From Methylococcus geothermalis (GTDB taxonomy: Bacteria > Pseudomonadota > Gammaproteobacteria > Methylococcales > Methylococcaceae), in assembly GCF_012769535.1 (NCBI RefSeq), contig NZ_CP046565.1, positions 3,191,501 to 3,255,500 on the forward strand: DNA of 64,000 bases, read 5' to 3'. The translations under genes and the position numbers were made by a program. Shown one piece after another: positions 6,363-15,662 of the stretch (position 1 is the stretch's first letter; every line of letters starts with the position of its first letter). The notes beneath the pieces were generated by a model. That model was not told where the DNA came from and did not search any database. It worked only from the letters and a program-made list of their open reading frames with translations.

Positions 6363-6797
6363 TCAAACCCGCATCAGCCGCGCCAGCAGACTTTCGACCC
6401 CGTCCCGCCCGCGCAGCTGGTTTTTCCAGTCCGCCGGGATGCCCGCAATCCCGAATCGGATGCCGGCCAGGCGCTCCGGAAGGTGTCGACGACGTAGCCG
6501 GTGCCGGCGGGATGCGTTCGTTGCGGCGCGGTCATGAGCACGTCGAGTTCGGTTCGCTCGTCGTCATCGAGGAATTCACTCAGCCCTTCAGCAAGGGCGT
6601 CGGCCTCGGCGATTTCGCCTTCCAGCAAGCGCCGCGCCAGCAGGCAATAGAGCGCACACGTCACGCCGCTGCGGGGATGGCCGTGGGTGGGCCTGCCCTG
6701 CTCGATCGCCAGCCGGACCAACTCCGCATCATCGCCCCGGTGCCACAGCGCCGGCGATGGCATCCGAGCGTGGCTGTGCGCTGGGTTCGATGGACAT
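6363..6797 (-). pseudogene. ADP-ribosylglycohydrolase family protein, internally deleted
   Basis: The ATG at 6797 opens MSIEPSAQPRSDAIAGA, the start typical of ADP-ribosylglycohydrolase (DraG/ARH-like) proteins. The text then jumps frame into ELVRLAIEQGRPTHGHPRSG, ALYCLLARRLLEGE and HPAGTGYVVDTFRSAW, C-terminal blocks of the same family. After another shift it ends NQLRGRDGVESLLARLMRV. More than half of the normal ~300-residue enzyme, including the N-terminal metal-binding motifs, is missing. The family removes ADP-ribose from proteins; this copy cannot be functional. Confidence 0.65.
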
Positions 6798-6884
6798 GCT
6801 GGAGGTTCTCCCTGACCCGGAAGCCGGCTATGGAAAGAAGGATACCGCAGGACGACGACAGCTTTGCTCACGGGCGAGGACTTG

Positions 6885-6917
6885 GCGGAGGACGCGCCCC
6901 GAAGCCGCGTCCTCCGC
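6885..6917 (-). terminator. Strong hairpin downstream of the respiratory gene block
   Basis: GCGGAGGACGCG and its perfect complement CGCGTCCTCCGC flank a 9-base loop, giving a 12-bp GC-rich stem 13 bases past the stop of the cytochrome c gene. There is no T tract on the minus strand, so it may be a stability element or a factor-assisted terminator. Confidence 0.55.
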
Positions 6918-6929
6918 AATCCCGGACCG

Positions 6930-7559
6930 CTATTTCAGTTTGGCATAGTAATCGGCCAGTTGACGGATCTCGGCGTCGCTGAGTTTTCCGGCGATCAGCC
7001 GCATGCGGCTGTAGATGTCGTTGGCGCGCCGGCCGCTCTTGTAGGCCAGGAGGGTCGCTTCGAGATAGGCCGCGCTCTGGCCGGCCAGGCGGGGGGTGTC
7101 GACCTTCTCGCCTTGGCCCGCCGCGCCGTGACAGGACGAACAGGCCGGCTCCATGCGCCGGCCTTCCCCGCGTTCGGCGATGCCGGTGGCATCCGCCGCT
7201 CCGCCGGCACCGAGCATCGGCGGCTGTTTGCCGTACCAGGCGGCCAGGTCGGCCATATCCTGGTCGCTCAAGGCCGATGCCATGGCGTTCATGATCGTCG
7301 CCGGGTCCTGCCGGTTACCGTTCTTGTAGTCCTGCAGTTGCCGGTACAGATAGGTCGGCAACTGGCCGTTCAGGTTGGGATTGGTACCGGTGCCGTCGTG
7401 GCAACCGGCGCAAGGGGCGGACAGCGCCTTGCCGCGGTCGGCGTCGCCCTTCTTGACGAAGTCGAGCACCGCCGGGGTCCAGGCCACCTTGCTGGAAGGC
7501 TCGGCTTCGGCGCCGGCCGCCAGCGTCATGCCGATCGTCGCAAGTAGAATGGCTTTCAT
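6930..7559 (-). CDS. Periplasmic diheme cytochrome c (c4-like)
   Basis: The 209-residue protein has a signal peptide (MKAILLATIGMTLAAGAEA) and two haem-binding motifs, CAGCH near residue 50 and CSSCH near residue 145, each starting a cytochrome c domain of about 90 residues, as in cytochrome c4. It is expected to carry electrons in the periplasm. The start at 7559 is two bases after the oxidase subunit I stop, so it is the last gene of the block and a likely electron donor to the ba3-type oxidase or to NorCB. The ending QLADYYAKLK is typical of the family. Confidence 0.85.
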   Translation of the reverse strand: MKAILLATIGMTLAAGAEAEPSSKVAWTPAVLDFVKKGDADRGKALSAPCAGCHDGTGTNPNLNGQLPTYLYRQLQDYKNGNRQDPATIMNAMASALSDQDMADLAAWYGKQPPMLGAGGAADATGIAERGEGRRMEPACSSCHGAAGQGEKVDTPRLAGQSAAYLEATLLAYKSGRRANDIYSRMRLIAGKLSDAEIRQLADYYAKLK

Positions 7560-7561
7560 CT

Positions 7562-9175
7562 TCAGTATCCCCAAGCGCTCGGATTGTAGGTTTTCAAGAC
7601 GAAGAACTGCAGGATGGGATAGCCGTAGCTCAACACCATCAGCACCAGAATCACCCTGTTCCACAGGGTGAACCCGTTCAGCCAGGCGGGCGGCGGCCGA
7701 ACGGCATCATCCGCCGCTGCCGGCTCGGCTTCCAGCGTTTCCCCCGCGGTCTGGGTCTTGTACAGGATGTAGACGAACTGGCAGGCGGAAACCAGCAGGA
7801 TGAAACCGCCGATGACCATCAGCGACTCGTAAGGGTCCCAGGACAGGGTGAGCACGCTGTTGTACTGCACGGCCGAGATGCGGCGCGGCTGGCCCAGCAG
7901 GCCCAGGATATGCCAGGGCGTGGTCATGACGACCATGCCGATGAACCAGCCCCACAGCTGCACCAAGGGCAGGTCTTCAGAATACAGCTTGCGTCCCACC
8001 AAACGCGGCCAGAGTTGGTAGGCGATGGCGAGATACATGGTGACCACCGTGCCGGCGAAGATCAGGTGGAAATGGCCGGGTACCCAGGCGGTGTTGTGGA
8101 CCATGGCGTTCATGGCATAGCTGGCGTTGACGATGCCGCCGAAGCCGCCCAGCACCAGCATGAGCAGGGACAGGATCGCCGCCAGCACCATCGGGTTCTT
8201 CCACGGCAGCGCGCCGATCCAGCCGAACAGCCCGGCACCGCCCTGCCTGCGTCCGGCCAGCTCCAGCGAGGCGATGACGGTGAAGCCGGTCAGCAGGGTG
8301 GGAATGGCGACCGCGAAGGTGCCGACCATGTGCAGGAATTTCCAGCCCACGGCCTGTTCGGGGTCCATGTAGAGATGGTGGAAGCCGATGGGCAGGCCCA
8401 GCACCAGGATCAGCACGAACGCCGTGCGCGCCAGCACGTCGCTGAACAGCTTGCCGCCGGCGGCCTGCGGCACGTAGCAGTACAGCGCGATATAGGCCGG
8501 GATCAGCCAGAAGTAGACGATGGGGTGCAGGGTCCAGGCGAACAGGGTGCGGGCCAGGCCCACGTCGATGGTGTCGGTCAGCCCGAGCGCCCACGGCAAC
8601 AACTGGAATACCGACTCCAGGGCCACACCGAGGCTGGTCCACAGCCACAGCAAGGCGTTGGCTACGGTCGCGAACATGGGCAACGGTACCGTTTCGCCGG
8701 GATGGTCCTTCTTCCAGCGGGCCAGCATGACCAGCATGATCGCGCACCAGAACCACGAGCCCACCACCAGCAGCGTCGCTCCGATGTAGAAGAAGACGTT
8801 GGCCTGGATCGGCGGGTAGAAGGTATACAGCACCGAGGCCTTGCCGAGCAGCAGCGGGATCGCCGCCAGCACGACCCCGCCCACGCAGACCCCATAGCCG
8901 GTCCAGGCCAGCCGCGGATTCCACACCGGCTGGCCCAGGCTATGCGCCGCCGTGTAATAGCCGAAGCCCATGATGAAAAAGGTCGTCAGCACGAAGGCCA
9001 TCAGCACCCCATGGGTGCTGACCGAGGCGAAATAGACGGCGGGCGACTGCAGGAAGGCGAACAGGCCGCTGCGTTCCAGGACCTGGTACATGCCGAAGAA
9101 ACAGGCCAGTCCGAATGCGCCGAAGGCCACCCAGAAATTGAAGAGCGTAAGGCGGGTCGAAGTTGCATCGTTCAT
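7562..9175 (-). CDS. cbaA: ba3-type cytochrome c oxidase subunit I
   Basis: This 537-residue, many-pass membrane protein is a haem-copper oxidase catalytic subunit of the B (ba3/CbaA) type. WTLHPIVYFWLIPAYIALY supplies a CuB histidine and the nearby tyrosine, GFHHLY the other CuB histidines, and VPGHFHLIFAG the haem-ligand helix. It begins MNDATSTRLTLFNFW; the ATG at 9175 overlaps the subunit II stop (ATGA), so an upstream extension is unlikely. It reduces O2 to water with electrons passed from the CuA centre of subunit II. B-type oxidases generally have high O2 affinity, and some are known to reduce NO slowly, which fits the norCB neighbourhood. Confidence 0.88.
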   Translation of the reverse strand: MNDATSTRLTLFNFWVAFGAFGLACFFGMYQVLERSGLFAFLQSPAVYFASVSTHGVLMAFVLTTFFIMGFGYYTAAHSLGQPVWNPRLAWTGYGVCVGGVVLAAIPLLLGKASVLYTFYPPIQANVFFYIGATLLVVGSWFWCAIMLVMLARWKKDHPGETVPLPMFATVANALLWLWTSLGVALESVFQLLPWALGLTDTIDVGLARTLFAWTLHPIVYFWLIPAYIALYCYVPQAAGGKLFSDVLARTAFVLILVLGLPIGFHHLYMDPEQAVGWKFLHMVGTFAVAIPTLLTGFTVIASLELAGRRQGGAGLFGWIGALPWKNPMVLAAILSLLMLVLGGFGGIVNASYAMNAMVHNTAWVPGHFHLIFAGTVVTMYLAIAYQLWPRLVGRKLYSEDLPLVQLWGWFIGMVVMTTPWHILGLLGQPRRISAVQYNSVLTLSWDPYESLMVIGGFILLVSACQFVYILYKTQTAGETLEAEPAAADDAVRPPPAWLNGFTLWNRVILVLMVLSYGYPILQFFVLKTYNPSAWGY

Positions 9176-9768
9176 TGCTGACTTCCTCCGGTAGCGGGCT
9201 TGCGCCAGTTTTCCTGGGCGACGACGGTGACCTTGCTCCACATGTGGTCATGGCCCAGGCCACAGTATTCGTTGCAGAGCATGGGATATTCCCCCGGCTT
9301 GGGGAAAACGCTGACCACCTCGGACACGTAGCCCGGCACGATCATGGCGCTCATGTTGGTCATGGGGATGTGGGCGCCATGCAGCACGTCCATGCTGGCC
9401 ATGCGGAAAACGATCCGGCGCCCGGCCGGCACCTCGATTTCCCGCGGATAGAAGCCGTAACGGCCGGCCACCAGCCGGACCTGGATGGAACCGTCGGCAA
9501 GCGGCGTGGGCTGCACGCCCAGCTTGTCCTCGGCGAACTCCTGGCTCAGATGCAGGCTGGCGGAATCGATGGTTTCGACATGGCCGGGGGGATGAATACC
9601 GTGGCTGACGGCGGTGACGACGATCGCGCCGACGAACAGGCCGATCATGGCGATGGACACCAACAGCCATTTCCTTTCCAGTTCATTGATTTCCAGCTGG
9701 GACAGTTGTACCCCAAGCCCGGCCAGTTTTTCGTGTAGCCAATTCTTGTCTGGCGAACGGATTTGCAT
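9172..9768 (-). CDS. cbaB: ba3-type cytochrome c oxidase subunit II (CuA)
   Basis: The 198-residue protein has one N-terminal membrane anchor (LLVSIAMIGLFVGAIVVTAV, about residues 35-54) and a periplasmic cupredoxin domain. The CuA site is visible: an upstream histidine in VLHGAHIPM, then CNEYCGLGHDHM with the two cysteines, histidine and methionine. It accepts electrons from cytochrome c and passes them to subunit I. AGAGGAAAAGG lies just before the ATG at 9768. The stop overlaps the cbaA start. Confidence 0.88.
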   Translation of the reverse strand: MQIRSPDKNWLHEKLAGLGVQLSQLEINELERKWLLVSIAMIGLFVGAIVVTAVSHGIHPPGHVETIDSASLHLSQEFAEDKLGVQPTPLADGSIQVRLVAGRYGFYPREIEVPAGRRIVFRMASMDVLHGAHIPMTNMSAMIVPGYVSEVVSVFPKPGEYPMLCNEYCGLGHDHMWSKVTVVAQENWRKPATGGSQQ

Positions 9769-9808
9769 AACCTTTTCCTCTTATTTTCCATTGACGCGCC
9801 GGTTTCGC

Positions 9809-9834
9809 GCTGCGGGGATGCGTTGCCCCGCAGC
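9809..9834 (-). promoter_or_regulatory. Intercistronic hairpin between the small oxidase subunit and cbaB
   Basis: GCTGCGGGG and CCCCGCAGC form a perfect 9-bp stem with an 8-base loop in the 82-bp gap. No T tract follows on the minus strand. It may be an mRNA processing or stability element that sets different expression of norCB and cbaBA. Confidence 0.4.
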
Positions 9835-9850
9835 CGGGGTTTGGGAATCG

Positions 9851-9991
9851 CTAACCCACTTGGCCGCGGGGCAGGAACACCCCGAAATAGAGGAACAACC
9901 AGGCCGCGGTCATCCCCAGAGCCACCAGGCAAAGCAATACCCACGTGCCCCGCGGCGATTCTTCGTGTCCGGAATCGTGTTCAGCTGACAT
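9851..9991 (-). CDS. Small single-pass subunit of the ba3-type oxidase (subunit IIa-like)
   Basis: This 46-residue protein has a hydrophilic start (MSAEHDSGHEESPRGTW) and one membrane helix (VLLCLVALGMTAAWLFLYFG). GAGAGGGG lies just before the ATG. Size, single helix and position directly before subunits II and I match the accessory subunit IIa of ba3 oxidases, which completes the helix that subunit II lacks. The assignment rests on size and context rather than on conserved residues. Confidence 0.7.
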   Translation of the reverse strand: MSAEHDSGHEESPRGTWVLLCLVALGMTAAWLFLYFGVFLPRGQVG

Positions 9992-10011
9992 AACCCCTCT
10001 CCAAGCCGTTG

Positions 10012-10035
10012 AAAAAAAATCAAACCCGCCCCGGG
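10012..10035 (-). terminator. Weak hairpin plus T8 tract after norB
   Basis: On the minus strand CCCG-GGG-CGGG is followed by TTTGA and a run of eight T, 30-50 bases past the norB stop. The stem is only four pairs, so at most partial termination is expected, letting some transcripts continue into the oxidase genes. Confidence 0.3.
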
Positions 10036-10064
10036 CCGCACAGACCTATCCATGGCCCTCCTGA

Positions 10065-11510
10065 CTATCCGGCCTCGGTTGCGAGCTGCGGCGCCCGGCG
10101 CATCTCACCCACGCCGATGGTGAGGAGATCCCACACCAGCAGCAAGACACCCGCCAGCGTCACCACACCGAACACCAGGCGCCAGGCCATGGCCTGCTGG
10201 AACCAAGGATGCATCTGGGCAGCGAAATACCCCCCCCAGGTCGAGCCCTCCACCGCCCGTTCGATGAACGACTGCTCGTAGCCGGCGATCAATAGCGCCA
10301 CCGTCATGCCTATCACGCCGAAATTGAGCAAGGCGAGCGCCCATTTCCACTTCCAGCCGCCACCGGCCAGGCCGCCGCCCAGCCAGATATTGCCCCGCCA
10401 AGTTTGCACCGCGATGTAGAAGAAAGCGATGTTGATGGTGGCATAGGCGCCGAAGAAGGCCAGGTGGCCGTGCGACGCCGTCCATTGGGTGCCGTGGGTA
10501 TACAGATTGATCTGCGGCAGGGTATGCATGAAGCCCCAGACGCCTGCACCGAGAAAATTGCCGAAGGTGTGGGCGATGATCCAGGCCAGCGCCGGATGGT
10601 TGCCGTTCTTGAACTTGTGGACGCCAGCGTCGTACACCGAATGCACCACCATGGCGACCAGAGGAATCGGTTCCAGCGCCGAGAAGAAGCCGCCGATGGA
10701 GAACCAGTAATCCGGCGTGCCGATCCAGAAATAATGATGGCCGAGGCCGAGGATGCCCGAGCCGAACATCAGCGCCACCTCGATGTACAGCCAGGTTTCC
10801 ACGATCCGGCGCCGCACGCCGAGCACGTGCATCAGGCCCCAGGCCATGATGCAGCCGACCAGGACCTCCCAGGTCGCCTCCACCCACAGGTGGATGACCC
10901 ACCACCACCAGTACTGGTCCGCCGTGATGTTGGTCAGATAGAACATGCCGGCGCCATACAGTCCCGCCAGAGCGACCAGATCCAGGGTCAGCACGCCGGC
11001 AATGCCGGACCAGCGGCCTTTCGAGAAGGTGGCCGCGACGTTGTAGAAGAACACGCCCAGCACGGCGACGATGCCGAGATCGGCCCAGCGCGGGGCTTCG
11101 AGGTATTCGCGGCCCTCGTTGACGAACCAGCGGGTGAGGTCGTTGCCGGGACCGGTCTGAACCAACAGGTAGACCACCACCACGACGGCGACCGCCGCGG
11201 TCAGCACCCAGAACGCCAGGTTGCCCAAGCCCAGCCCGACGATGCGGGTGCCGCTCTCCTCCTCCAGCAGCCAGTACACCGCGCCGACGAAGCCGTACAG
11301 CATCCACACCACCATGGCGTTGATGTGCACCATGCGGTTGACGCTGAAATCGAGCACGTTGTAGAGAAAATCCGGCCGGATGAACTGGATCGCGGCCAGC
11401 AGACCGAACAGCATCTGAGCCAGGAACAGCACGACCGCGACGCTGAAATACTTGACCGCCAGTTGCTGCCCCCCGTTGAGGTTGGCGCTATCGATGATTC
11501 CGGTGCGCAT
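10065..11510 (-). CDS. norB: Nitric oxide reductase, catalytic subunit NorB
   Basis: The 481-residue, about 12-helix protein belongs to the haem-copper superfamily. Diagnostic cNOR blocks are QYWWWWVIHLWVEATWE (haem/FeB region with the conserved glutamates), GLGHHYFWIG (FeB histidines), FLGAGVWGFMHTLPQIN and THGTQWTASHGHLAFFGAYA (haem ligands). It reduces two NO to N2O at the membrane. No N-terminal cytochrome or quinol domain is fused; the cytochrome subunit NorC lies two bases upstream, so this is the cytochrome-c-dependent type. Start ATG 11510 gives MRTGIIDSANLNGGQ. Confidence 0.93.
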   Translation of the reverse strand: MRTGIIDSANLNGGQQLAVKYFSVAVVLFLAQMLFGLLAAIQFIRPDFLYNVLDFSVNRMVHINAMVVWMLYGFVGAVYWLLEEESGTRIVGLGLGNLAFWVLTAAVAVVVVVYLLVQTGPGNDLTRWFVNEGREYLEAPRWADLGIVAVLGVFFYNVAATFSKGRWSGIAGVLTLDLVALAGLYGAGMFYLTNITADQYWWWWVIHLWVEATWEVLVGCIMAWGLMHVLGVRRRIVETWLYIEVALMFGSGILGLGHHYFWIGTPDYWFSIGGFFSALEPIPLVAMVVHSVYDAGVHKFKNGNHPALAWIIAHTFGNFLGAGVWGFMHTLPQINLYTHGTQWTASHGHLAFFGAYATINIAFFYIAVQTWRGNIWLGGGLAGGGWKWKWALALLNFGVIGMTVALLIAGYEQSFIERAVEGSTWGGYFAAQMHPWFQQAMAWRLVFGVVTLAGVLLLVWDLLTIGVGEMRRAPQLATEAG

Positions 11511-11512
11511 GT

Positions 11513-12115
11513 TCAGTCCTCCTGGTGACCGATGGTCTTGAAGTTCGTCGGGAAGCCGTTGGTGTCGATGGCCGACATCCATTTCAGGAAGGCGACGATG
11601 GCGTGGGCTTCGGCGTCGGTGATCCCGAGTCTTGGCATCTTGCGCCCCGAGCTGAAGGTGACGGCGTTTTTTTCCGGGTCCTGCAAAAAAGCCAGCATCC
11701 TGGCTTCGCGTTCCTCGATGCTGCCCCAGTTGGGATCGAGCCAGGCCTTGGTGAGATCGGGAGCATAATAAGCGCCGTTGCCGAGCAGGGTGTGGCAGTT
11801 CATGCAGTTCTTGGCCTGCACCGTCTTCTTGCCCAGGGTGACCAGAGCCGCCGCCTCTTCCTCGCTCAGAGGCCGACCGAACAGCGGTTCGTCGCCACCG
11901 AATACCGGGCGGTAGCGGTTCTTGCTGTAATCGAAGCGGTAGTCGATGGCCTTGTTGATGACGCTGTAAGCCTGCACCCGGCTGCCGCCGACCGCGGTCT
12001 TCGACAGCGTGTCGAAGGTCAGGATGATGAGGATGACGAAAGAACCGGCCGTGACCCAGATCGCGACCTTTTTCCAAAAGCTCTCGGAAGCCCAGACGGG
12101 CGGTGTGGTACTCAT
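11513..12115 (-). CDS. norC: Nitric oxide reductase, cytochrome c subunit NorC
   Basis: The 200-residue protein has an N-terminal membrane anchor (residues about 18-35, VAIWVTAGSFVILIILTF) and one periplasmic cytochrome c domain with CMNCH near residue 110 and a methionine ligand candidate in GRKMPRLGI. This is the classic NorC layout; it passes electrons from soluble cytochromes to NorB. GGGGGAG lies ahead of the ATG at 12115. The gene ends two bases before norB. Confidence 0.93.
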   Translation of the reverse strand: MSTTPPVWASESFWKKVAIWVTAGSFVILIILTFDTLSKTAVGGSRVQAYSVINKAIDYRFDYSKNRYRPVFGGDEPLFGRPLSEEEAAALVTLGKKTVQAKNCMNCHTLLGNGAYYAPDLTKAWLDPNWGSIEEREARMLAFLQDPEKNAVTFSSGRKMPRLGITDAEAHAIVAFLKWMSAIDTNGFPTNFKTIGHQED

Positions 12116-12139
12116 GCCAACTCCCCCTTGCGGTTGCTC

Positions 12140-12150
12140 TTGATTATCAA
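12140..12150 (-). promoter_or_regulatory. Palindrome TTGATTATCAA upstream of norC
   Basis: A perfect 11-base palindrome lies 25 bases before the norC start. Its halves match FNR/Dnr half-sites (TTGAT/ATCAA), but they are separated by one base instead of four, so a CRP/FNR-family site is doubtful. Confidence 0.2.
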
Positions 12151-12177
12151 AACCGGCACGATTTTCGACGATGAGGA

Positions 12178-12504
12178 TCAGTCTCCTGGCGGAGCCCTGG
12201 AACCTCTTTCGAGACGATGGCTGGCGGCGCACAAATGCCAGATGCCGTGAGGAGCCAGCAGGTAACCGACCAGCATCAGAACCACCACCCCCTGCCACGC
12301 GCCGTCGAGGTGGGCGGTCCGGGCCAGCAGCAGCACGGCAGCGGCCAACGCCGCATAACAGACGTAGGCCCCGACCAGCCACCGCCGCCGGTTCTTCAAG
12401 CGCGCCCAGGCGAACAGTCCTGCGTATCCCGCCCCTCCGAGGACGATCGCCGCGGCGGCCGCGAACACCAGCCGGAGATCCGCCGGATCGACGGGTTCGA
12501 TCAC
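12178..12504 (-). CDS. Small three-helix membrane protein between the HPP gene and norC
   Basis: A GTG at 12504 overlaps the stop of the HPP gene (GTGA), giving 108 residues starting MIEPVDPADLRLVFAAAAAI. Three hydrophobic segments are seen, at about residues 10-32, 43-63 and 68-88; the tail is basic (HRLERGSRAPPGD). It ends 62 bases before norC. No family was recognised. Accessory membrane proteins such as NorE/NorF accompany norCB elsewhere, but I see no convincing match to either. Coupling to HPP and position in the nor block suggest a role with one of them. Confidence 0.65.
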   Translation of the reverse strand: MIEPVDPADLRLVFAAAAAIVLGGAGYAGLFAWARLKNRRRWLVGAYVCYAALAAAVLLLARTAHLDGAWQGVVVLMLVGYLLAPHGIWHLCAASHRLERGSRAPPGD

Positions 12505-13673
12505 GAGGCCACCGCCAGCGCCGGCTGCGTCAGTCCGGTTGGAACACTGCGATAGAGGGCGGCGATCAAATCGGTTTGCGTCACCAGGCCGACCAGCTTG
12601 CCGCGCTCGTCGACGATGGGGACCTGGTGGATGCCGTGTTCGCTCAGCAGCCGGGCCAGTTCGGCGATATGCACGTCTTGGCGAGCGGTAATGGCGGGCG
12701 CGGTCATGATCTGACCTACGACCTCCGGCTTGGTCGAGGTCACCCCAGGCGAGCGAAGCAGGAGGGCCCTCAGCCTTGCGCTCAGGCTGCCGAAACTCTC
12801 GGCGCGGGCATGGCGGAAGAAGTCCTTGAGCGTGACCATGCCGATGACATGCCGCCCCCGGTCCACCACCGGCAAGGCGCGAATGCCCTTGCGCTGCATC
12901 AGTTGCCAGACCGGCTCCAAATCGTCGCCGAATTCCGCGGTCAGCGGCTGGGGGGTCATGATATGGGCACAGGTGGTCTCGCCGAAGGTGCGGCGGAAGG
13001 CCCGGCTGGCGGCGAAGTGGTAGATGTCGCTCAGTTCGTCGGCGCTGACGTCGACGAACACCCCGACGTCCTGCAGGGCCGCGTGAAAGTCCTCGGCCCG
13101 GATGCCGATGCGCCCCAGCGGGCTGGGCGGATGCGGCTCGGTAGAGGGAGCCGGTCTGGCGGCATGCGCCCAGCGGCCATAGAGTCGGGAGACCGCCAGA
13201 ATGACCGCCACATTCAGCGCCAGCGGCGTCAGCAGGAACTGGAACCCCAGCGCCTGGATGCCCGCATCCCCCAGCACCGGGATCAAGGCGGACGCACCGC
13301 CCGGCGGATGCAGACAGCGCGTGAGTTGCATGGCGAATATGGCCAGCCCCACCGCGGCCGCCGCCGCCGGCCAGGTATCCGGTACCCAGCGGACGCACAG
13401 GATGCCGATCAGGCCGGAAATCAAGTGTCCGCCTACGAGGGACCAAGGCCGCGCCATGGGGCTGTGCGGCACCACGAACAGGATCACCGCCGAGGCGCCC
13501 ATCGACGCCACCAGGGTCTTCAAGCCGCCACCCTCGATGAACCGGCTGCTGATCAGGCCGATCAGGAAGATCGCCAGCCCCGCGGCCAAGGCGGAGCGGA
13601 ATTGTTCCGGCAAACTGGTCGGCAAGGGCTCGGGCCGCCAGAGACGGGGTATCTTCAAGCATTTGATTGGCAT
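12501..13673 (-). CDS. HPP-family membrane protein with C-terminal CBS-domain pair
   Basis: The 390-residue protein has an N-terminal HPP domain (about residues 30-175, four or more helices) including QLTRCLHPPGGASALIPVLG, which holds the HPP signature. Two CBS domains follow (about 230-290, IMTPQPLTAEFGDDLEPV; and 320-380, IMTAPAITARQDVHIAELAR). HPP proteins of cyanobacteria and chloroplasts have been reported to transport nitrite; CBS pairs bind adenine nucleotides. It is the first gene of the block leading to norCB. ATG 13673 has AGGGA upstream. Nitrite handling here is inference from family and context. Confidence 0.82.
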   Translation of the reverse strand: MPIKCLKIPRLWRPEPLPTSLPEQFRSALAAGLAIFLIGLISSRFIEGGGLKTLVASMGASAVILFVVPHSPMARPWSLVGGHLISGLIGILCVRWVPDTWPAAAAAVGLAIFAMQLTRCLHPPGGASALIPVLGDAGIQALGFQFLLTPLALNVAVILAVSRLYGRWAHAARPAPSTEPHPPSPLGRIGIRAEDFHAALQDVGVFVDVSADELSDIYHFAASRAFRRTFGETTCAHIMTPQPLTAEFGDDLEPVWQLMQRKGIRALPVVDRGRHVIGMVTLKDFFRHARAESFGSLSARLRALLLRSPGVTSTKPEVVGQIMTAPAITARQDVHIAELARLLSEHGIHQVPIVDERGKLVGLVTQTDLIAALYRSVPTGLTQPALAVAS

Positions 13674-13756
13674 CGCGGTCCCTGTGGCTGCACTTTCGCC
13701 GATGAATGCCGTGCGCCCACAGGGCATTCCGTGGAGACGGCGAAGCCCGGAGCACT

Positions 13757-13779
13757 AACATGCATTATGCGTACATATT
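13757..13779 (-). promoter_or_regulatory. NsrR-like operator overlapping the HPP-nor promoter
   Basis: A 23-base site reads AACATGCATT in its left half and CGTACATATT in its right half, separated by ATG. Compared with the published NsrR consensus (two AANATGCATTT-type inverted halves, 23 bases), 15 of 21 defined positions match and the left half is nearly perfect. It overlaps the predicted -10 and start point of the promoter at 13775-13802, the right place for a repressor. NsrR is an Fe-S, NO-sensing repressor of NO-detoxification genes. No nsrR gene is in the window. Confidence 0.55.
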
Positions 13780-13802
13780 ATTGCGCGATATGCCCATGTC
13801 AA
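13775..13802 (-). promoter_or_regulatory. Sigma70-type promoter for the HPP-norCB-cba block
   Basis: On the minus strand TTGACA (13797-13802) is separated by 16 bases from TAATAT (13775-13780). The -35 is a perfect match and the -10 matches four of six. The expected transcript start, near 13768, leaves a leader of about 95 bases before the HPP ATG. Confidence 0.6.
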
Positions 13803-13852
13803 GCGAAGCGGTCTCGTCATGGATCGAGGAGACATCCAGGATGCCACCGACT

Positions 13853-15139
13853 TCAGGCCGGATAGACCAGCAGCGCCTGCCCGGGTTTGAGGCGGCTGTT
13901 GGGCGTCAGGCCGTTCCAGCCGGCCAGGGCCGTCTCGGAAACTCCGTGGCGCCTGGCGATTGCGGCCAGCGTTTCGCCCTTCTTCACCACGACGGTCTTT
14001 GCCGACACCAGTTCCGCCCCTTCGAGGCTGGCGGCCATGGCTTGTGCGTTCTTCAGCGGGAGCATCAGGCCGTATTTGCGCTGCGGCGCGTCATGGATGG
14101 ATTTCAGCGCCGGGTTCAACAGCTTGAACACGGGCTCGGGCAGACCGGCGGCGCTGCCGATGTCGGCCGGGCGGATACCGGGCTCGATCTCCAGCCGCGC
14201 CAGGGCCGGCGTGCCCGGCACCGGTTCGAGCTTGAGGCCGTAGCGGTCGGGGCCCGCGAGAATGCGCGACAAGGCGAGAATTTTCGGCACATAGCCACGG
14301 GTCTCGGGCGGCAAGGGCAGACTCCAGAAATCGGTGCCGCGGCCCGCCGCGCGGTTGCTCGCGATCGCATGCTGCACCGCGCCCTCCCCCGCGTTGTAGG
14401 CGGCCAGGGCCAGCAGCCAGTCGCCCTCGAACCGGCTGTGCAGATGCTGCAAATAGGACAGGGCCGCAGCGGTGGACGCGTGAATGTCATAGCGGCCATC
14501 GTAGTCCGCCGCCATCTCCACGCCGAAACGCTGGCCGGTGGAGGGAATCAACTGCCAAAGACCGGCGGCGGTCTTCGCCGAAAGCGCGCTCGGGTCGCAT
14601 GCGCTCTCCACCATCGGCACCAGTACCAGATCCAGCGGCAACCCCCGCCGCTCGACCTCGCCGACCAAATAATGCAGAAACGGCTCGGCCCGCTTGGCCA
14701 GGCTCCGAACCCGCGCCGGCCTGTCCCGGAAGCCCGCCAGCTCCGCTTCGACCGATTCATGGTTCCAGCGGGCGAGTTCCAGACGCTCCCTGACGTAATG
14801 CCACAAACCGTTCTTGTGGGTCTTGGGCGGACCGACGGGAATCACCCGGATGCCCTTGCCCGACAGACGGCGGACGGGCTCGGGCGCCGCGTTCTCCGGC
14901 GCCATCGCCGTCTGAACCGGGACGGCGTCGGACGCCAGCGACCTGAAGTAGTCCGCCAGCAGGGTTTCGATCAGGTCCCCATCGGCGGAGGAATTCAGGC
15001 GCGGAATCCGGTCGTCTCCGGCATCGGCTTTCTCGGCATCGCTCGTGTCCTCCAACATGGCCCACCGGAAAGGCGTTTCGGCGCATCCGGCAAGGAGCGA
15101 CAGCAGCACGGCGGCTATCGTGAATCGTGGCAAGCTCAT
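13853..15139 (-). CDS. mltD: Membrane-bound lytic murein transglycosylase D with LysM domain
   Basis: This 428-residue lipoprotein has the lipobox LLAGC at residues 15-19. The SLT/goose-lysozyme-like domain spans about residues 155-290: VESACDPSALSAKTAAGLWQ contains the catalytic glutamate, and LALAAYNAGEGAVQ the AYNAG motif. A C-terminal LysM domain (VVVKKGETLAAIARRHGVSE, about 378-425) binds peptidoglycan. It cleaves glycan strands to 1,6-anhydro products at the outer membrane. A single LysM is fewer than in some MltD proteins. It is transcribed away from the cytochrome c gene at 15345. Confidence 0.88.
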   Translation of the reverse strand: MSLPRFTIAAVLLSLLAGCAETPFRWAMLEDTSDAEKADAGDDRIPRLNSSADGDLIETLLADYFRSLASDAVPVQTAMAPENAAPEPVRRLSGKGIRVIPVGPPKTHKNGLWHYVRERLELARWNHESVEAELAGFRDRPARVRSLAKRAEPFLHYLVGEVERRGLPLDLVLVPMVESACDPSALSAKTAAGLWQLIPSTGQRFGVEMAADYDGRYDIHASTAAALSYLQHLHSRFEGDWLLALAAYNAGEGAVQHAIASNRAAGRGTDFWSLPLPPETRGYVPKILALSRILAGPDRYGLKLEPVPGTPALARLEIEPGIRPADIGSAAGLPEPVFKLLNPALKSIHDAPQRKYGLMLPLKNAQAMAASLEGAELVSAKTVVVKKGETLAAIARRHGVSETALAGWNGLTPNSRLKPGQALLVYPA

Positions 15140-15344
15140 TTCCAGCGGTCCTGTTGTGGTCTGGACGAGATTAGGCCCTCATAACGTATAGCAGCAAAGT
15201 GGGGTCTTTTCAAAAAAACAAGCCACGGATTCTTGTTGCAAGCGGCGTGGCCGTGCCATCATCCGGCGGGCGCGCTCGCACGGCGTGGACACCGCGCACG
15301 ACGAGCGCCGCGGTTCACCATCATCCCATTGGAGGAGAACGACC

Positions 15345-15662
15345 ATGCCTAGAAGAACGATGCACCTCTTCCTGTCCGCCGCCCTCGGTGCCGCTGTCGG
15401 CGGCCCTGCGCAGGCCAGCGAGGAACTCGCCAAAGCCAAGAACTGTGTCATGTGCCATTCGGTCGACAAGAAAATCCTGGGGCCGGCATTCAAGGACGTC
15501 GCCCAGAAATACGCAGGCCAGCAAGGCGTCGATGCCAAGCTCGCCGAGAAGGTGATGAAGGGAGGCTCCGGCGTCTGGGGAACCATGGCGATGCCCCCCA
15601 ATCCGCAGGTCAGCGAAGCGGAAGCGAAACAGCTGGTGCAGTGGATTTTGAGCCTGAAATAG
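15345..15662 (+). CDS. Small periplasmic cytochrome c (c551-like)
   Basis: The 105-residue protein has a signal peptide cleaved near GPAQA, the haem motif CVMCH at about residue 31, and the methionine ligand in TMAMPPNPQVS. Length and spacing fit class I c551/c5-type cytochromes, soluble periplasmic electron carriers. The ATG at 15345 has GGAGGA at 15331-15336. It stands alone between mltD (divergent) and an antitoxin remnant, and could serve the nor/cba enzymes encoded nearby. Confidence 0.85.
   Translation: MPRRTMHLFLSAALGAAVGGPAQASEELAKAKNCVMCHSVDKKILGPAFKDVAQKYAGQQGVDAKLAEKVMKGGSGVWGTMAMPPNPQVSEAEAKQLVQWILSLK

Follow-up and report, generated by a model that had tools for sequence, protein, structure and literature searches.

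An NsrR-type operator precedes NO reductase genes joined to a ba3-type oxidase operon in Methylococcus

Introduction

Methanotrophs of the gammaproteobacterial group produce nitrous oxide (N2O) and meet nitric oxide (NO) when they co-oxidise ammonia. In the Methylococcus geothermalis genome (3.37 Mb, a single contig) eight co-oriented minus-strand genes encode an HPP-CBS membrane protein, a small protein termed here orf2, the NO reductase subunits NorC and NorB, a 46-aa protein, a CuA subunit II, a ba3-type oxidase subunit I and a diheme cytochrome c, and the question arises whether one NO-sensing switch governs both enzymes. The locus was studied in a window of 64,000 nucleotides (contig NZ_CP046565.1, positions 3,191,501 to 3,255,500), in which an original prediction had regarded these genes as an NO-responsive unit under an NsrR-like operator, as a single NO/O2 respiration module and as an unusual pairing. 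In our opinion they probably form one operon of this gammaproteobacterial methanotroph that answers to NO and is repressed by NsrR, with the ba3 oxidase included. If this is true, one NO switch raising the NO reductase and a second terminal oxidase together would help to explain how respiration is kept up under NO. The kinds of components are already known; new is their joining, seen only in Methylococcus among the genomes examined.

Results and Discussion

The operator and its regulon

The HPP promoter is composed of the -35 element TTGACA (13797-13802, minus strand) and the -10 element TAATAT (13775-13780, minus strand), separated by a 16-bp spacer, and the NsrR-type operator AATATGTACGCATAATGCATGTT (13757-13779, minus strand) overlies the -10. 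This agrees with the original prediction of a good sigma70 promoter overlapped by an NsrR-like 23-base site. The promoter matches in 10 of 12 letters and is the better of two sigma70-like sites in 6700-14000; since shuffles of this region are expected to hold 1.3 such sites (standard deviation 1.1), the promoter by itself does not rise above chance. The operator agrees in 11 of the 12 core letters with ATGyAT-N5-ATrCAT, the core of the published NsrR motif gATGyAT-N5-ATrCATc (PMC1274295). When the whole genome was searched for ATGYAT-N5-ATRCAT with at most one mismatch, seven places were found, against none for the reversed control; two of them precede HPP and nsrR, respectively, and at the other five no NO gene was recognised, as judged by their open reading frames only. 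Measured by a 22-letter NsrR consensus, which underlies all scores out of 22 given here, the operator reaches 16, a value attained by 9 of 20,000 letter shuffles of the 125-bp gap between the lytic transglycosylase gene mltD and HPP. The pattern AANATG-N8-ATNCATNTT has its sole exact genome match at the window site and six places at up to one mismatch, that of nsrR included (reversed control: 0). Since this pattern was built after seeing the site, the published motif is preferred as the basis.

Promoter and operator are both present upstream of HPP in all five species read, out of six Methylococcus genomes. In one of them (G021) a 12-base alignment gap shortens the spacer, and an inner TAATAC then stands 17 bp from the -35.

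The nsrR gene itself (G000:C1:3330738-3331175 in the source genome) lies outside the window, about 126 kb from the operator. It is divergent from a gene pair encoding a truncated hemoglobin and a ferredoxin-reductase-like protein, an NsrR-type site between them being common to both sides, and the hemoglobin/reductase promoter, TTGACA-17-TAAAGT, has its operator placed as at HPP, over the -10. Each of the six Methylococcus genomes carries nsrR. The site and the -35 were present in the nsrR-hemoglobin gap of 5/5 species read; in the sixth genome, G093, the start of nsrR was not located and the genome was left out of this count. The nsrR-hemoglobin-reductase group is probably the other half of an NO-defence regulon.

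In order to follow these genes outside the genus, 50 stretches were fetched: five from other Methylococcus, one around the nsrR of this genome, two with an ordinary NorB (L167 and L168) and 42 Methylococcales nor loci (L131-L165, L169-L175) with the NorB type of the window, the last being a deliberately spread selection from the 116 genomes, out of 251, that have NorB. Among the 42 loci, orf2 was found in 40, hemoglobin in 16, the reductase in 15, nsrR in 14 and HPP in 6. A site scoring at least 17/22 anywhere in the stretch was present in 11 of the 14 loci with nsrR and in none of the 28 without it. HPP stands between the reductase and orf2 in L132 (where its match is in two pieces), L133, L138 and L140; in L132, L133 and L140 nsrR, hemoglobin, reductase, HPP, orf2 and norCB are clustered, and L138 is alike except that nsrR is not in the stretch. 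Therefore the ancestral cluster of the family was probably nsrR divergent from hemoglobin-reductase-HPP-orf2-norC-norB. In Methylococcus its genes stand at two separate places, both with an NsrR-type promoter in front.

Published data on a congener of the source strain, Methylococcus capsulatus Bath, point the same way: norB was up 4.8-fold with 0.5 mM of the NO donor nitroprusside (Campbell 2011 as reported in PMC4594100). Thus NsrR control of the unit, as the original prediction proposed, is strongly supported by the comparison of sequences (conserved site, nsrR, and co-occurrence of the two) and agrees with the NO-donor response of Bath norB. No description of NsrR control of this Methylococcus locus was found in the titles, abstract openings and passages of the open-licence literature.

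Joining of the nor and oxidase genes

How common is the neighbourhood of the two enzymes? In 251 Methylococcales genomes subunit I was detected in 133, and comparison of the place tables by eye gave five genomes in which NorB and subunit I lie within 10 kb on one contig. The tandem order norCB-ba3 occurs in four of the 251 (G000, G003, G017 and G021), all of them Methylococcus, that is, in 4/6 genomes of the genus; in G051 the genes are within 10 kb and convergent, and in G169 they are about 12 kb apart. Among 321 genomes of the class NorB was found in 66 and subunit I in 14, and the two were within 10 kb in two, both Methylococcus. Two of these searches scored only the top 4 or 5 candidates of each genome, and both worked with E-value limits, so that distant copies may be missed.

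The neighbourhood was also examined from the side of the oxidase: a search with subunit I gave 127 Methylococcales loci, of which the best 80 were used. In 79 of them each of the three partners, namely the 46-aa protein, the CuA subunit II and the diheme cytochrome c, was present, the misses being at contig ends. The stretch includes norB in three (L012, L025, L027), and only in L012, M. capsulatus Texas, where the whole gene order is identical, is norB directly upstream; at least 3 kb of upstream sequence was available for 63/80. The ba3 operon thus appears to stand apart from nor in other Methylococcales, and the joining appears genus-specific among the genomes examined, which bears out the view that the pairing is unusual.

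An NsrR site at the ba3 operon throughout Methylococcales was also considered. A scan of 330 bp upstream of the operon with the 22-letter consensus in 78 loci showed no enrichment, the mean best score being 12.86 both for the loci and for their letter shuffles, and the idea was dropped. An exact FNR-like pattern occurred at 6/78 loci, too few to use. G003 has, besides the nor-linked operon, a second, stand-alone ba3 operon (L130, G003:C1:1127000-1140000) with a 71% identical subunit I, and no site scoring at least 15 was found in the fetched stretch.

Extent of the unit and alternative explanations

All the joints are as originally described, with overlaps, 2-bp gaps and gaps of 62-82 bp: HPP and orf2 overlap by 4 bp, orf2 and norC are separated by 62 bp, norC and norB by 2 bp, norB and the 46-aa gene by 73 bp, the latter and subunit II by 82 bp, subunits II and I overlap by 4 bp, and subunit I and the cytochrome gene are 2 bp apart. 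A strong hairpin after the last gene (6887-6917, minus strand), without a T run, has -38.8 kcal/mol, which none of 200 shuffles equalled; it is likely the 3' end of the unit. Spacing and kept order speak for a single transcript from HPP to the diheme cytochrome gene, in which transcription would read through from norB into the oxidase genes.

The following mechanism may be proposed. NsrR would sit on the -10 of the HPP promoter and repress it. NO, for example from ammonia co-oxidation, would react with the Fe-S cluster of NsrR, and the repressor would leave. HPP, orf2 and NorCB would then be made and NO removed; as the ba3 genes of Methylococcus are directly downstream, NO would also raise the second terminal oxidase and its cytochrome c. 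A benefit of this oxidase under NO can only be supposed, since the NO reduction reported for ba3 oxidases is much slower than that by NO reductases, and nitrite may inhibit them (PMC8780969).

Several observations weigh against such an operon. At 10023-10037 (minus strand), in the norB-oxidase gap, there is a weak terminator-like element, a stem followed by a T run (the region has 11 such sites, 4.4 being expected). The 16/22 letters of the operator are the weakest among the five species. The product of nsrR reaches 135.5 bits where the NCBIfam cut-off for NsrR is 182, yet no other family fits it better (E 1e-39). According to PMC10623323, the Bath genes of NO-to-N2O conversion showed no significant change with nitrogen source or temperature. 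Finally, parts of the unit are missing in sister species. G045 is without norCB, no NorB match being found genome-wide at E <= 1e-60; in G021 the HPP gene encodes 212 aa, in frame and with inner parts missing, and the frame of subunit I stops early; in G093, which is 87% complete, neither norB nor subunit I was found at the limits used.

The best-surviving alternative is that two separate units are adjacent: an NsrR-controlled HPP-orf2-norCB ending after norB, and a ba3 operon with its own promoter, rearranged alongside it without common control. The terminator-like element, the 73-bp gap, the oxidase quartet standing alone in other Methylococcales, and the independent erosion of the HPP, nor and oxidase parts would all be in line with this. 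However, no sigma70-like site was found in the norB-oxidase gap, the terminator-like stretch folds no better than shuffles (187/200 fold as well), and the order is retained in 4/6 Methylococcus genomes. G045 (L126) also argues against it. Where its sisters have orf2-norC-norB, a 206-bp gap between HPP and the oxidase genes retains only the first codons of orf2, and promoter and operator (18/22) as well as HPP and the oxidase genes are kept; the NO reductase thus appears to be lost and the operator kept. G045 does not represent a state before the arrival of nor, as its gap retains those codons and HPP adjoins orf2-norCB in other genera. On balance we consider two separate units unlikely, though clearly worth keeping in mind.

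That a different regulator occupies the palindrome (some other Rrf2 protein or an oxygen/redox regulator), the unit answering oxygen or iron-sulphur state rather than NO, seems very improbable: the genome does have six Rrf2 matches, four of them over the cut-off, and ba3 in Thermus is described as an enzyme of oxygen limitation (PMC6446978), but sites and nsrR co-occur as given above, a like operator stands between nsrR and the hemoglobin gene, and Bath norB is reported to respond to a NO donor (PMC4594100).

The NsrR-repressed operon remains our preferred reading. To speak of a single NO/O2 respiration module implies too tight a coupling, because sister species have lost or reduced some parts independently of the others. 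In an aerobic methanotroph the combination of HPP and nor suggests a defence against NO no less than a respiratory role. The single-switch idea could be tested in M. capsulatus Bath, where a CRISPR interference screen with MCA locus tags has been published (PMC13108547).

In comparison with known systems, the NsrR regulons with norB of Neisseria, Chromobacterium violaceum, Ralstonia solanacearum and Burkholderia (PMC1274295) share an NsrR-type operator upstream of the NO reductase gene and NO-defence genes in the regulon; the present unit differs in having HPP and orf2 ahead of norCB and a ba3 oxidase behind it. Neither HPP nor Methylococcus is mentioned in the paper's main text. A precedent is offered by Vibrio fischeri (PMC5156696), where NO likewise raises a NO-resistant terminal oxidase via NsrR. 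That enzyme is a non-pumping alternative oxidase, whereas in Methylococcus it is a heme-copper ba3 oxidase downstream of NO reductase.

The NO reductase and its companion orf2

The norC gene (11513-12115, minus strand) encodes the cytochrome c subunit, with a cytochrome c domain, and norB (10065-11510, minus strand) the catalytic subunit. NorB aligns with Pseudomonas aeruginosa NorB (E 7e-93) over the whole core, including HLWVE, GHHYFW, LEPxP and HGH, which we take to contain the ligands and key glutamates. The active-site residues and the NorC partner are thus those of a cNOR. It is only about 40% identical to ordinary gammaproteobacterial NorB, however, and does not group with it: in a tree with 34 rows, taken from the window, 13 Methylococcales loci and 20 loci of the class, the two types are split with 100/100 support (rows L221 and L168 were flagged as long).

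The gene orf2 (12178-12504, minus strand) encodes an unnamed three-helix membrane protein of about 105 aa that accompanies this type of NorB. It was found just before norC in 40/42 Methylococcales nor loci and in 14/15 class genomes with the window's NorB type (besides the window, it was noted in L131-L144 and L211-L220). Among the 321 class genomes 14 have orf2, in each case no farther than 0.75 kb from norB. All 14 belong to the 15 genomes whose NorB shares at least 56% identity with that of the window, the exception being G383 (56%). No orf2 was detected in the 51 class genomes having only a 38-42% NorB; as at most 14 candidates per genome were scored, this absence is not absolute. On the NorB tree the presence of orf2 requires three label changes, and none of 500 shuffles needed as few. 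It is lacking near norC in L145 and L147, both of one genus, which is probably a secondary loss. From these sequences orf2 accompanies a deep, distinct NorB clade.

In an alignment of 20 rows the family begins with a conserved MIEPV, contains invariant tyrosines and ends in W-x-LC-x-x-(T/S)H. No Pfam family exceeded its cut-off, and a profile search of PDB sequences gave one match at chance level (E 0.71). The predicted fold has three helices, with a mean predicted local distance difference test (pLDDT) score of 83 (3 rows); two of the five models were near 58. This NO reductase is common in methanotrophs and relevant to N2O release, and orf2 is a concrete candidate for a subunit of it that has so far been overlooked. 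It is conceivable, although we regard it as rather doubtful, that orf2-NorC-NorB forms a three-subunit class of NO reductase of its own, in which orf2 would be an integral subunit or an assembly factor, and that Methylococcus has wired this enzyme and the ba3 oxidase to one NsrR switch. Through a single transcript NO would then set off its own removal together with a switch to another terminal oxidase.

The oxidase

Subunit I (7562-9175, minus strand) aligns with the Thermus thermophilus ba3 enzyme (E 1e-109) in the HPIVY, FHH and HFH motifs, and has the tyrosine and metal ligands of B-family oxidases. On these alignments the idea of a B-family-derived NO reductase was rejected. Subunit II (9172-9768, minus strand) matches the Thermus CuA subunit (E 1e-31), with the CuA motif CNxYCGLGH aligned. 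The two differ from their Thermus counterparts in standing behind NO-reductase genes with an NsrR operator and in the attached gene of the diheme cytochrome c (6930-7559, minus strand). The 46-aa single-helix protein (9851-9991, minus strand) is without a family match and is probably subunit IIa. Three COX1-family matches were found in the genome, namely the ba3 gene, norB and one at 536 bits that is presumably an aa3 oxidase. For M. capsulatus Bath, a published table gives one oxidase each of the aa3, bd and ba3 types, the ba3 genes being MCA2396-MCA2397 (PMC6956133).

HPP and neighbouring features

The HPP gene (12501-13673, minus strand) encodes an HPP membrane domain (TM_HPP, PF04982, 154.8 bits against a cut-off of 27.2) and two CBS domains. 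The start codon kept in five species is at 13673, correcting the start of the longest open reading frame, 13727. Nitrite transport is known for plant and cyanobacterial HPP proteins, and a similar function may be supposed here.

The lytic transglycosylase gene (15139-13853) lies ahead of the unit on the same strand, and it was also found ahead of it in the fetched loci of four other species. Rfam gave no match within the window. Two minor observations may be added. A match to the NsrR motif with one mismatch is located at G000:C1:36496-36512 (L192), between two divergent reading frames, one of which is a long membrane protein; and upstream of the lytic transglycosylase gene, on the opposite strand, the window carries a single-heme cytochrome c gene (15339-15659, plus strand).

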